A stretch of 64,000 nt of DNA, taken from assembly GCA_900074885.1 (NCBI GenBank), contig FJUW01000002.1:1349018-1413017 (forward strand). The letters are read 5' to 3'. The notes below the pieces were generated by a model. The model saw nothing but the letters and a program-made list of their open reading frames with translations, was not told the origin of the DNA and ran no database searches. The position numbers were made by a program, and so were the translations under genes. Source of the stretch: Rhynchosporium graminicola (Eukaryota > Ascomycota > Leotiomycetes > Helotiales > Ploettnerulaceae). Shown here piece by piece: positions 58,221 to 64,000 of the stretch. Position 1 is the stretch's first letter. Each line of letters begins with the position of its first letter.

Positions 58221-60084
58221 ATGGCTACACCTTCGCCTCACAAACCACGGCGGAAGGTCAAGAAGACAAGCAATGGCAGCGAAGCCTCTCCAGTGACGCC
58301 GACGCCCTCATTCTCACCAGCAGGAAGATCCAGCACAACTCGCCCAGCATACCCTCTTGCAGCTTTCCTCTGGCCCGCGCGGAGTTCCGTGTCACAATGG
58401 GAGATACTCCCGTTGATATTGATGGCCCTTGGGCTCTTCAGATGGGCAGCAGGTCTCTGGGGATACTCAGGTGAGTCTACGGGCAACACCCAGAGCAGAA
58501 AGGACACAAAACTAACAGGATTGTTCCTACATAGGCTTCCAGAACCCCCCTCTGCACGGCGACTACGAAGCACAAAGACATTGGATGGAGATCACGACCG
58601 GCTTACCCATCTCGCAATGGTACTTTCACGATCTCGAGTGGTGGGGACTGGACTATCCACCGTTGACTGCATACCACAGCTGGTTTCTGGGGAGGATTGG
58701 AGGATTGATCAACCCGTCCTGGTTCGCCTTACATACGTCTCGCGGACTTGAAGATCCTACGTTGAAAGTCTTCATGCGAGCCACGGTTTTGATATCTGAG
58801 TACCTCATCTATATACCCGCGGCCGTCATCTTCGTTCGCAGACTTACGAAACTCCAAGGAATTAATTCATGGAATGCTTCGATTGCTTTGACTGCCATCC
58901 TCATGCAACCCGGTACCATCCTGATCGACCATGTACACTTCCAATACAATACTGTGATGTTGGGGCTGGTGCTGGCAAGCATGTCAAGCATATTGGCAGG
59001 ACGATTCATGTGGAGCTGTGTGTTCTTCGTGCTAGCTCTGGGATTTAAGCAGATGGCTCTGTATTACGCCCCAGCTATCTTCGCATATCTGCTAGGAGTA
59101 TGCCTCTTCCCAAGGATCAACATTCCTCGATTTCTAGGCATTGCCGTCGTTACACTAGTCACATTTGCCCTTCTCGTTCTACCGTTAGTCCTGGGGGCAC
59201 TCTACGATACGCACCGAGGCATCGATGCCCGACCTGACCTCAGAGGCCATTTCGCACCTCTTCCCATCTTCAGCGAATACTCGTACTTGATCAACTACAA
59301 GGCCTGGTACTACCCAATCGTCCAGCAACTGGCACAGATAATACACCGCGTATTTCCATTTGCCCGTGGACTTTTCGAGGACAAAGTTGCCAATTTCTGG
59401 TGTGCTTTCAACGTCGTTATCAAGTTGAAGCAATATCCATCTGAACAACTCCAGCGAGCTTCACTCCTCCTCACACTCGCAGCCATCACGCCACCCTGCT
59501 TCATAATCTTCCTCAAGCCTAAGAAAGAGCTGCTTCCACTGGCCCTCGCAACAACAGCATGGGCTTTTTTTCTCTTCAGCTTCCAAGTCCACGAGAAAAG
59601 TGTTCTACTGCCATTGATGCCCATGACAGTTCTCTTAGCGGGAAAACACGGTCTCAGTAAGAACGTCCGCGCCTGGGTAGGATTTGCGAATCTGCTTGGT
59701 GTGTGGACGATGTTCCCGTTACTGCAACGTGTCGATCTGCGCATTCCATATTACGTTCTCTCGCTCCTTTGGGCATACTTTCTTGGTCTGCCTCCAACAT
59801 CGATTGCGGTTTACAAGCAGGACGGAAGCGCCACGTTCACTGGATTTGCTACAGCTTCGTTGCAAACAATTTTTTACATCGCTATGGGCGTCTGGCATGT
59901 TGCTGAGGCGTTCTTATTACCTCCTCAAGGCAAGCCAGACCTATGGGTTGTCATCAATGTTGGTGTTGGAGCTGTAGGATTTGGGATCTGTTACCTTTGG
60001 TGTCTTTTCACTCTGGTTTCAGAATGTGGATTGTTGTACTTTGCTGCCTCGAGCACAAAGAAGGTAAAGCCCAAGACACTGTAA
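58221..60084 (+). CDS. ALG6: Dolichyl-P-Glc:Man9GlcNAc2-PP-dolichol alpha-1,3-glucosyltransferase (ALG6)
   Basis: ER membrane enzyme adding the first glucose to the lipid-linked oligosaccharide for N-glycosylation. Exons 58221-58470 and 58535-60084 (donor GTGAGT, acceptor ATAG, phase 1) give 599 residues. A basic, Ser/Pro-rich cytosolic head of about 70 residues precedes span 1. The luminal catalytic loop reads PPLHGDYEAQRHWMEIT and HDLEWWGLDYPPLTAYHSW, the ALG6/ALG8 family signature with its acidic residues. DHVHFQYN, GFKQMALYYAPAIFAYLLGV and VHEKSVLLPLMPMTVLLA follow in the expected order, and around 12 membrane segments are visible. ALG6 is preferred over ALG8 from the H-D-L-E-W-W-G-L-D-Y-P-P form and the length. 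It is the last intact gene before the telomere, 3.8 kb from the repeats. Confidence 0.95.
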
Positions 60085-61144
60085 TTTGTAACGGTGTCAG
60101 ATGTTTATAGGTCGTTGCCATATACCCAAATTTCATGTTTTGCAAGAATTGCTGGTATCTCTCAGTCTAGCTTGATACGCGGTCACAAAGGATGTCGAGG
60201 CTAAATATACGTCTTGTCGACACACATGCCTCAGGACTCCAATCCACTCGACGCGCACTCCGAGCAAATAGACATAGGTCTCGCTTACGAGCTTGTATAT
60301 ATAAGTAATCCCTCAGGTGTAATTCTATATCGTGTTCGATTTCTTCTGGTTTCATGCTCATCTTGATACTTCAACCTCGCCTAGCATGCACTCGAAGCAA
60401 CGACCTGCACTGATACCGTAGTCTATTGCGTCTAGTGTGAGATCCGAAGATGGAATTGATATAGATTGAATCAAATGCTGCAATCAGATCAAAGATTTGG
60501 ATTCCTTAAAAAGAGCTGCTCAAAAGGGAGATTTCTAGCTACTTATGTAGCTATATGAGCTCTGTAGAATTATCTAAACTCTATAATAGAGAAACCTCTG
60601 AATAGATATATTTGCGTTTTAGCAAGATTTTATCCCGTGATAGTAAGGTTCGAAACAGGGTTAATAATAGATCTAGTCTGGCCTTGTATTTTAGCTTAAC
60701 ATTTGAGGACGTTTATCGAGATTAAGCGAACTCCATCGAGAGCTTCGATAGTAACTCTAATAGATAGCTATAACTCCAAGTACAAATTGAACTCGATCGA
60801 GAACTCTAATAAGATACGACAAGATATTGATTACGAATCCAACATTGAGCTCTTTCCTTCGATCATGTTTGAATAGCCCACGCTTGAATCACAGTAGCTC
60901 TGCTTAGTGGCTGCAGGACGATCAGAATATGAGGTTAGATTCTTATAAGCAGATCTATCTTCAGCTCCAACATGTTATATCATATCTGCCTACCACCGAG
61001 GACTTTTCAGAAGCCTATTATTCAATGATGAAAAGAGTGCGCTTGTTGTGGAGAGTAGATGGGCCGGGACGGTGGGACGAAAAGTGAGAGCGGGAGCATT
61101 TTGAGCCTGTCAGCTGATGAATGGTCGAATATGATAACGATCGA
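60085..61144. other. AT-rich subtelomeric sequence, no gene seen
   Basis: From about 60400 the sequence is TA-rich with words such as AACTCTAATAGATAGCTATAACTCC and ACTCGATCGAGAACTC recurring in related forms. This looks like degraded repeat sequence. No intact ORF is supported. Confidence 0.55.
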
Positions 61145-61167
61145 GGGCTTAGGGTTTAAGGGTTAGG
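61145..61167 (+). repeat. Interstitial degenerate telomere-like tract
   Basis: Three to four imperfect TTAGGG-type units (GGGCTTAGGGTTT then AAGGGTTAGG) in the same orientation as the terminal telomere 2.7 kb away. They lie at the inner border of the reverse-transcriptase element, as expected if that element sits within former telomere repeats. Confidence 0.65.
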
Positions 61168-63850
61168 TGATATTGAATCTAACTACGCTATCTTGCTACA
61201 GGTGTTTTTCTAACTATAAGGAAATTTTTTTAGCTATAAGTACAGGTGATACGCGCTATAAATACAGGTAAGAAGAGTACTAAATAAAAGAGAGATACAG
61301 GAGCCTAAGATAAGCGATATGTACTACGAGTAGTAGATAGATAGTCGAAGCCTTCGATAGGCTAAGGGTTATTATTCGAGGTACGTAGAGGCTATTAGGG
61401 CAGATAAGATGTTCTTTACAGAGGGGGGGGTGCTCTGTGGCGAGAGAGAGGGTTCCCTGTGGCGCGGGGGTGAATTCGCTCTAGGGTAAGCGAGGAGTGA
61501 TTTTTCGAGGTGATTTAGAGTTACTTATATGCTATAATTAACATTGCAGCGATACCTCGCGCCTGAGTCAAAGAGGTAGCAATAAAGCTATCGAGCCACC
61601 TCGCTCTACTAGGGCCTAGTAGGCCCTGAAGAGCCCTATAAGTCTTCGCTGTATCCTTTTCTATTAGACTACCGGCGGAAATAATTAGAGAGTGAAATAC
61701 AGGGCCTAGATCCTTATATTTCAGTTGTTTCGCGTTTGCGGCCTCTGTAAGCGTAGCGTAGGCTTCCTCGCGTGCTGAATCCTTATTAATCGCTACTATC
61801 TGAACGTCATAGTAATACCTAGAGGTGCCTATAAGTACTGAAAAATCAGGGCGTTTACTATTTTCAGGCTGTCGACTGCCTATAGTCGCTAGTATAAGCT
61901 CTGATTCGACTTTTAGATCTTCCCGGCTAGAAAGGGTAGTTATAAATGCATAGGTAACCTGGTCGTGGCGTATAATCCAGCGTCTTTGAGCTCCTCTACA
62001 GGTGTCTTCATAGCCTATTTCAAGGTAGGCGCTACAGGCCGTATAAGGAGCAATTGGAGGTTTTACAGGGAGTAGGAGCCTAGTTCGAAGGGCCTTTATA
62101 ACTGTAGAATCCGCTAAAAGGTAGTGCTTTTGCGTAGGCAGGGTTCTAAGCCAGTAGCAGCCGAGGTAGCTAGCGTTCTCTAGCTTTATCTTTAGGGCTG
62201 ATTTCGGTAGCGTAAGTAGTAGACAACTCTCTAGGCCTTGATTTACGCTTTGAAAGATCTCTCGCGCAGTTGAAATAGAGCGATTAAGCGGTTCCGGGTT
62301 TATAGGGTAGATTTTAGGGCATATAGCCTCTAGAATCGGCCTACTCGCTTCTTTCGCGGCCCTATATAGCCCTAGCGCTAATAGCGCGTGTATCGGGATC
62401 CCTAAGCCCCCTTCGCGTACTAGAAGCGCTATAAGTGCCGATCGAACTAAAGTACTCTGATCCCCTGGCTCTCTAGCGATTAGAGCCTGAATAGCGTGGT
62501 GAATTTGGCTGTCAGCCTGTTTCCATAGGACCTCTAGGCCTTCAGGGTATAGCTGGCGCTGTAGATGCTGTAGCAGTAAGTGAATACTCCCTCTGAGTAG
62601 TAGTAGAGCGTGTTGTTTCGGGAGCTGCTTTAGGGTGTCGAGTGCTATAGCGAGTGTAGTTATCTTGCCTCGTAGAAAGGTCCGGCGCGTTTCTACAGGG
62701 CCTATATAGGTCCCTAGAGCCTGAAGACCCTTCGCCTGTAGCTGTGCGATAGGGTAGTCGGCACTCTTTCGGCGATTTAGAGCTACTAGAGAGTGCTAAA
62801 AGGCCTCTGTAACTACAGGGAGTAGCGCTGTCGAATCCGGACTACAGATATAGATATCGTCCAGGTACGCTATAATAGTCGCTCTCAGTAGGGTTTTTTG
62901 AAGGTGCTCTAGCATAGGGCATATCGCTAGAGAGAAGAGTAATAGAGCGATCGGGTCTCCTTAGCGTACCCCTTCAGCGCTAGCTAGCGTTTAACCCTTA
63001 TTTATCACTAGGATCGAAGGCTGATTATAGGCCCATTTAGTAGTACGATAAAGCGTCAGAGCGTATTTAGCGACCGCGGACGCTATCGCGCAGCGCCCTA
63101 TACGATTATAGGCGTTAACAAGATCTAGCGACGCTATTTACTATGTTTTCAGGCGATTTAGGCCTGTAATCGCGTCGTCGAGCAGAAAGATTATAGGCTC
63201 TACTCCCCCTATGGAGCCTACCTCTAATTGGTTCGGTAGTAGCATCGAAGGCCTGAAGGAGGTCGCTAGAATTACTTTCAGAGCTACCTTATAGATTAGG
63301 TCCCCTATGGCGATTAGTCGTACGCCGCTATCCGGCTTCTATAGGCCTATAAGTCGAGAGGCGCACAGAAGGTCTACGCCTGGAGCGGTACCCTGTCGGA
63401 TCATATTCGCTAAGTGTGCTAGCGCTTTTACTACAGGGGACGTAGAGCTTATATTTACTGCTATATCTAGTAGCGGGCAGGTCTATCCACTGAGTCCACA
63501 GGCCTTCTCTCTATCGATCGATCGAATCGCCTTCTATATCGCTTCAGGGCTAATATTCTGCCCTAGGGCGGGATTTGCGTTGCTAAAGGGGTTCTCGTGC
63601 CCTATAGGGTGTTTAGAGAGAAGGGTTTTCAGGGTCTCTGGCGTATCGGGCGCTAGGGGTATAGGGTCTATCAGAGCCCTTAACGCACGCCTTATAAAGC
63701 CTTTTTCCAGAAGCTTAATAGCGCGCTTTGCCGCTGAGTCGTTTAATACTACCGGAGGGTCAGTAGACGTTTCAGGGAGTTCAGGGAGCGTCATAGGGTA
63801 GGCTTTTAGTGTTTTAGCGATGTCGTTCTTCTGTAATCCGACCCCTAGTA
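61168..63850 (-). mobile_element. Telomere-associated non-LTR retrotransposon with REL endonuclease, 5' truncated
   Basis: The block between the interstitial tract and the terminal TTAGGG array is one element on the minus strand, its 3' end facing the chromosome interior. It consists of a coding part (63850 to 61521) and about 350 bp of noncoding tail. A reverse transcriptase followed by a restriction-like endonuclease, with no upstream apurinic-type endonuclease or downstream RNase H seen, is the arrangement of the R2/CRE-like early-branching non-LTR groups. Known members of those groups insert at specific sites, and MoTeR of Pyricularia inserts into telomere repeats. No poly-A tail is obvious at the inner end. 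The left border is inferred from where telomere-like bases stop. Confidence 0.7.
61521..63850 (-). pseudogene. Reverse transcriptase / restriction-like endonuclease polyprotein, eight nonsense codons
   Basis: One continuous frame of about 775 codons, without any frameshift, runs from the telomere junction to a TAA at 61521-61523. Pieces in order: ISPEAI near 63540; the RT segment KPDSGVRLIAIGD near 63310; motif A LDLVNAY at about 63108-63128; GVR-stop-GDP at 62955-62972, where family members have Q; catalytic YLDD at 62856-62867; thumb-region helices; RHDQV near 61962; then RPDF at 61842-61853, YYYDVQIVAINKD near 61800 and AKQLKYKDLGPVFHSLIISA, the PD-(D/E)xK nuclease core. In-frame stops lie at 63534, 63483, 63339, 63141, 63138, 62991, 62961 and 62796; all are TAG or TAA. 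The stretch 62795-61521 is open for over 420 codons but nearly lacks Met, so start-based ORF calling misses it. The N-terminal zinc-finger region is missing. Confidence 0.8.
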
Positions 63851-64000
63851 CCCTAGGGTTAGGGTTAGGGTAGGGGTTAGGGTTAGGGTTAGGGTTAGGG
63901 TTAGGGGTTAGGGTTAGGGTTAGGGTTAGGGTTAGGGTTAGGGTTAGGGTTAGGGTTAGGGTTAGGGTTAGGGTTAGGGTTAGGGTTAGGGTTAGGGTTA
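63849..64000 (+). repeat. Terminal telomere repeat array (TTAGGG)n
   Basis: About two dozen TTAGGG units run to the end of the window, G-rich strand 5'-to-3' toward the end. The inner units are irregular (CCCTAGGG, TAGGGG, TTAGGGG), the outer ones perfect. The right edge is therefore a true chromosome end. Confidence 0.98.

Follow-up and report, generated by a model that had tools for sequence, protein, structure and literature searches.

A truncated retrotransposon of the MoTeR type, probably inserted at the telomere, at a chromosome end of Rhynchosporium graminicola

The stretch analyzed here (the window) covers the final 64 kb of C52, a contig of 1,413,017 bases from Rhynchosporium graminicola (Leotiomycetes, Helotiales, Ploettnerulaceae), and the end of the window is the end of the contig. 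Next to its terminal TTAGGG array lies a minus-strand gene for a reverse transcriptase (RT) with a restriction-like endonuclease (REL) domain. We conclude, with a probability of about 0.72, that this copy is a 5'-truncated, stop-broken non-long-terminal-repeat (non-LTR) retrotransposon of the REL class and MoTeR type that was inserted at the telomere base of a chromosome end by target-primed reverse transcription, with priming on the G-rich strand. Judged from its sequence, the element is genuine, and its place as a new member of the known MoTeR-type group is well supported. Insertion at telomeres is likely because all 37 copies found by their 3' tails lie near contig ends in a single orientation.

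We searched the assembly (55.3 Mb, 121 contigs) with a pattern made of the 17-base telomere-like tail at the 3' end of the window copy plus the next seven element bases, allowing three mismatches and using the reversed pattern as a control. The pattern matched 37 times (30 exact, 5 with one mismatch, and 2 with two) and the control 0 times, so the tail belongs to the element itself. A more degraded tail is seen in at least one other copy, at C40:291083. The 37 tails are spread over 20 contigs, all within 61,169 bases (61.2 kb) of a contig end and not scattered through the interior, and the 3' end points inward in every one, as an earlier note on this DNA had described for the window copy. A blastn search with positions 61168-63850 returned 40 pieces, again all in this orientation; 37 of these started at query base 1 to 3, while their far ends fell at many different points. 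Some ends carry copies head to tail (e.g., C89, C72, and C19).

When we compared the 3' ends of all copies with the flanking TTAGGG sequence, at least two telomere-phase bases preceded the tail in 32 of 37 cases, against ~2.3 expected by chance for TT, and the telomere bases share one register wherever they are present. Five in-phase bases preceded 11 tails, two preceded eight, eight preceded seven, three preceded three, and nine preceded two; among the remainder, two tails had one such base, two had none, one had six, and one differed in its own first base. As expected of a MoTeR-type element, the copies thus sit at chromosome ends with the 5' end outward, and the 3' terminus adjoins telomere repeats, though the tracts are short. 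The 37 tails have 32 different proximal 22-mers.

The window copy is truncated and broken, because its frame covers only residues 467-1244 of the 1244-amino-acid R. graminicola protein P0001, to which it is 93% identical, and contains eight in-frame stops (5 TAG and 3 TAA). These stops rule out an intact copy; in addition, two residues of its CCHC knuckle, the first C and the H, read Y. The earlier note had described a minus-strand frame for an RT and a PD-(D/E)xK nuclease, and the domains are indeed real (RVT_1, GVR*GDP, YLDD, and an R2-like fold), but the frame is truncated and interrupted. Similarly, the proposed interstitial telomere tract does contain telomere-like bases (61149-61167), but most of them are the element's own tail, which rules out a long interstitial tract. 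The distal TTAGGG repeats were borne out in full: they occupy the last 147 bases of the contig, and the array gave 20 matches of a 12-mer (at most one mismatch), far above the 0.12 expected by chance. Read outward on the plus strand, the order is host DNA, TT, the 17-base tail, the 3' untranslated region (UTR), the minus-strand RT-REL frame, and the telomere, joined at a common TAGGG.

By profile, fold, and motif, we assign the element to the REL-type and not the apurinic endonuclease (APE)-type non-LTR retrotransposons, in agreement with the class first proposed for it. A sister copy on C89 (read with X at stops) matched RVT_1 with an E value of 1.2e-11, and both RT and REL align with R2 elements by profile and fold. 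The C-terminal fold of the element protein matches R2 proteins in a fold comparison and is that of a PD-(D/E)xK nuclease. P0001 contains the REL (R2/CRE) motif set CCHC, RHD/N, E, R/KPD, and D/E, arranged as CX2C-X7-H-X3-C-X9-RHD followed by X20-E-X15-RPD-X12-D (the second part counted by hand). Of 46 relatives exceeding 700 amino acids in length, 35 show this pattern, some of the 11 misses being partial or differently annotated. An APE-type long interspersed element (L1, Tad, I, or Jockey) was considered and rejected: the element shows neither an APE nuclease nor a closest RT match among L1-like RTs, and profile and fold place it with the REL type.

The C89 sister-copy protein is 95%, 91%, and 87% identical to three R. 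graminicola proteins. It also matches I1VC87 ("Reverse transcriptase, Pyricularia oryzae"), which we take to be the MoTeR1 protein, with 46% identity over 97% of the query, so that the RT is related to MoTeR1 over its length. In a quick tree, the element protein was closest to proteins of R. graminicola, Cadophora, and Oculimacula, within a wider clade that also includes the Pyricularia protein; a Fusarium oxysporum protein (P0037, taken as FoTeR-like) formed a separate subclade, and two R2 pieces fell outside. The phylogeny suggested in the earlier note was thereby obtained for Pyricularia and R2; the relatives found included no sequence named CRE, SLACS, CZAR, NeSL, or HERO. Related proteins also occur in Cladobotryum and Aureobasidium as well as in Cadophora and Oculimacula, suggesting an old, widespread fungal telomere parasite. 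One RT-REL protein of the same fungal family, P0027, is filed under a Methanophagales archaeon metagenome-assembled genome; its source is likely a misplaced fungal contig, and a scan of the genome-contig collection for it found nothing. Scans of the genome-contig and viral-contig collections for related loci of other species, in which element 3' ends could be read, yielded none. PF12013, taken as a marker of telomere-linked helicases, matched once (C66:410326), on a contig without element tails.

Composition differs sharply between the element and the rest of the window, with TpA/ApT of 1.79-1.88 vs. 0.62-0.83 and (CA+TG)/(AC+GT) of 0.54-0.70 vs. 1.26-1.31. Most of the differences between long copies are transitions (172 of 207 for C52 vs. 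C89a; 86 of 95 for C89a vs. C89b), the commonest class being G to A after T in these two pairs and G to A after A in C52 vs. C19a. This would be the trace expected from repeat-induced point mutation (RIP) plus ordinary decay, and RIP-like mutation likely broke the frame. C19a and C19b are 99.9% identical, with no transitions and a common proximal flank, whereas the other long copies are 88.2-96.0% identical to one another.

Some copies are short forms. In eight tails (including a weak case on C22 with one unit), a module built of 12-base GACCCGAAGCCT-type repeats, reached 687-913 bases out, replaces the remaining RT gene; C17:28945 and C82:663288 are not among the eight, since there a neighboring tail comes before the module. 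In one C24 short form the module starts with CCCTAACCCTAACCCGAACCCGG, and no join to a full-length 5' end was seen there. A second subtelomeric repeat, M1, is found at 17 places with the terminus ...CTAACCCTAACCCGTTTTTCTACCTAAGA, apart from small variations and with differing DNA beyond; this count leaves out the one-mismatch matches C62:1020042 and C82:164913, whose surroundings were unread. At all 17 places the terminus faces inward, and CTAACCCTAACCC adjoins it. M1 holds a 93-94-base variable-number tandem repeat, and ~2.8 kb of it is common to the C24 and C17 copies, whereas the C47 copy matches in its last 51 bases only. No open reading frame of at least 130 amino acids was present in the two 10-kb M1 loci listed. 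Four M1 copies directly abut a truncated RT element. The 3' tail common to the copies and the M1 repeat are features that a specialist might not expect.

We propose that the element would insert at the telomere base by target-primed reverse transcription, with the 3' end of a TTAGGG strand as primer. The element RNA would end in a telomere-like tail (...CCCTTAAACCC) whose CCC would base-pair with a GGG in the G-rich strand. The nick in this strand would be produced or trimmed by the REL domain, and outward copying of the RNA by the RT would follow. Since the antisense strand of the element, the first to be made, runs on from the proximal TTAGGG strand, priming would have been by the G-rich strand; the sense tail, ...CCTAACCCTTAAACCC, being complementary to that strand, would set the register. 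The window copy was likely broken later, inside the RT gene, and its broken end was likely capped by telomerase at the TAGGG seed. From the common 3' tail and the constant register one can frame a specific, testable model for the way in which an element of this sort might find telomeres.

Other routes could lead to a similar arrangement. One or a few old insertions may have spread from one chromosome end to another through recombination or break-induced replication within telomere tracts, so that most copies would not be separate retrotranspositions. The C19 pair with its common flank, the two C17 tails with a common flank, the flank that C117 has in common with C17, and the 32 distinct proximal 22-mers for 37 tails all speak for such copying, and for MoTeRs, too, Rahnama 2020 (PMC7367193, excerpt) leaves room for copies having come from other ends. 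However, the many 5' truncation points and the divergence among the other long copies require further events, and the presence of long annotated RT-REL frames in R. graminicola argues for mobility; we regard this explanation as unlikely. The REL domain may nick duplex DNA, or a natural overhang may be used, and the data fit either. Were the RNA tail to anneal to a natural 3' G-overhang without any nick, the nuclease would be dispensable for telomeric insertion; the complementarity of the sense tail, the single register, and a C89 tail joined to a truncated neighbor with no complete telomere repeat between them suit this version, but the REL pattern retained in most long relatives argues that the nuclease is used, and we give it a somewhat smaller chance than end-to-end copying. 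As improbable as end-to-end copying, in our estimate, is a wider scheme in which the telomere-like 3' tail would be a docking strand that pairs in fixed register with the G-rich 3' end of a telomere or of a newly capped break, in telomerase-like extension and healing of ends with the nuclease optional and M1 using the same route in trans. An REL element of other or loose specificity could survive at chromosome ends simply because insertions are tolerated there, and CNL1 of Cryptococcus, although subtelomeric, did insert into a reporter gene (PMC12810828, excerpt); yet tolerance explains neither the single orientation of all tails nor the in-register bases before most of them, and we consider this very improbable.

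Insertion at the telomere by target-primed reverse transcription remains our preferred explanation, and several points weigh against it. Recombination within telomere tracts would also keep register and orientation, so that independent insertions are not countable. Proximal tracts are at most ~3 repeats wherever they were read, and the target is thus deduced from few bases; five of the 37 tails are preceded by at most one telomere-phase base, C89:3557 and C89:6319 by none. Contig ends stand for chromosome ends, which is proven just where TTAGGG arrays were seen. The 424-amino-acid piece of the window copy alone had no match in Pfam or among Protein Data Bank sequences, and the Pyricularia row sits on a long branch of the tree. 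No full-length copy is assembled: P0001 residues 1-189 had no match in their own genome, in a search that ran without a positive control, so that its empty answer shows little. Contigs end inside element copies at the starts of C22, C47, C89, and C117 and at the end of C40, so that the assembly may lack full-length copies located at chromosome ends.

On the host side, the most distal recognized gene is an ALG6/ALG8-type glucosyltransferase (58585-60084), ~1.1 kb from the element; among the matches listed, its best-scoring named relatives are from Cadophora gregata (89%) and Diplocarpon coronariae (85%), both Helotiales, and none of the 120 relatives listed is a Rhynchosporium protein. The host flank (60100-61140) has itself as its sole full-length match in the genome, with just short dispersed matches elsewhere. 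Feature coordinates are collected in Table 1.

Table 1. Features of the window copy (window positions) and places of short forms and M1 (contig:position)
Feature	Position	Strand	Basis or remark
Proximal TT, outer edge of host-side DNA; TTAGGG with the next four bases	61149..61150	+	sequence, flank match
Element-borne telomere-like 3' tail, plus AGGGTTTAAGGGTTAGG, sense CCTAACCCTTAAACCCT	61151..61167	-	37 genome matches, control 0
3' UTR with variable GAGAGGGTGCCCTGTGGCG-like repeats	61168..61520	-	sequence, copy comparison
Truncated, interrupted RT-REL frame including stop codon	61521..63857	-	equals residues 467-1244 of P0001
424-codon stop-free piece: post-RT helical region and REL nuclease	61524..62795	-	
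CCHC knuckle and REL nuclease	61596..62045	-	motif reading
REL motif RHD	61962-61970	-	
REL motif RPD	61845-61853	-	
Next Asp of REL	61806-61808	-	
RT domain (RVT_1 region)	62799..63341	-	approximate, via residue numbering from P0001 639-819
YLDD motif	62856-62867	-	inside RT domain
Stop within GVR*GDP	62961-62963	-	inside RT domain
TAGGG common to element and telomere at 5' truncation junction	63854..63858	+	sister copies C89 and C19 continue as CCCTAGGGAGTAG
Terminal TTAGGG array, contig end	63854..64000	+	sequence reading, 12-mer count
Short forms	C24:13754-14855, C24:44800-45709, C17:25900-27486, C82:649229-650700, C88:605658-606790, C91:50549-51694		telomere-like 12-base-repeat module plus element 3' part
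M1 places	17 places, among them C17:887, C17:18176, C19:933680, C24:60998, C40:292345, C47:647, C85:279486, C88:606777, C88:611470		

Among known systems, R2 elements have an RT and an REL that can be aligned with those described here, but they lie outside in the tree and target 28S rDNA. TRAS and SART of Bombyx and HeT-A and TART of Drosophila share the telomeric niche and belong to other, non-REL lineages. TRAS and SART are named in the excerpt of PMC7367193. We found no such element reported for Rhynchosporium or Leotiomycetes, judging by titles and the openings of abstracts among the papers listed, and "telomer" is absent from the main text, as excerpted, of the 2016 Rhynchosporium genome paper (PMC5118889).

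The closest likeness is to MoTeR1 and MoTeR2 of P. oryzae, which have the same Fingers-RT-REL architecture, although RPD here corresponds to RAD in I1VC87 and the spacer before it is shorter here. In the excerpted account of MoTeRs (PMC7367193), their 5' ends are nearest the chromosome end, they have a putative REL domain, truncated copies have been repaired by the adding of telomere repeats at short seeds, and stable ends contain short interstitial tracts; the outward 5' end, the likely capping of truncated copies at short seeds, and the short tracts are all matched here. The same excerpt (Rahnama 2020) describes telomere-like sequence at the 5' end of MoTeR; the 17-base tail described here is at the 3' end, where MoTeR may or may not have one. 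That 5' sequence (PMC8381367, excerpt) resembles the C24 module start. The short forms are like MoTeR2 in having common ends and an altered middle, but they keep ~0.6-0.9 kb of the 3' side, compared to 77 bp in MoTeR2 (PMC7367193, excerpt). FoTeR of F. oxysporum, described in November 2025 (PMC12857005, excerpt), is likewise telomeric with its 5' end outward, encodes RT and REL, and shows RIP decay, its truncated copies outnumbering full-length ones; its 3' ends carry ~3-7 TAACCC repeats, whereas those described here have 0 to ~3 repeats and an element-borne variant tail. CNL1 of Cryptococcus neoformans forms subtelomeric arrays and has an R2-superfamily RT closest to MoTeR, but its host is a basidiomycete (PMC12810828, excerpt). 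The earlier note's suggestion of a telomere-targeting element outside Pyricularia is thus likely right, but going by the excerpts of PMC12857005 and PMC12810828 the element is not the first of its kind. Chromosome ends shaped in this way may be prone to instability, which has been reported in Pyricularia, and the element likely adds a Leotiomycete lineage to the MoTeR, FoTeR, and CNL1 group.
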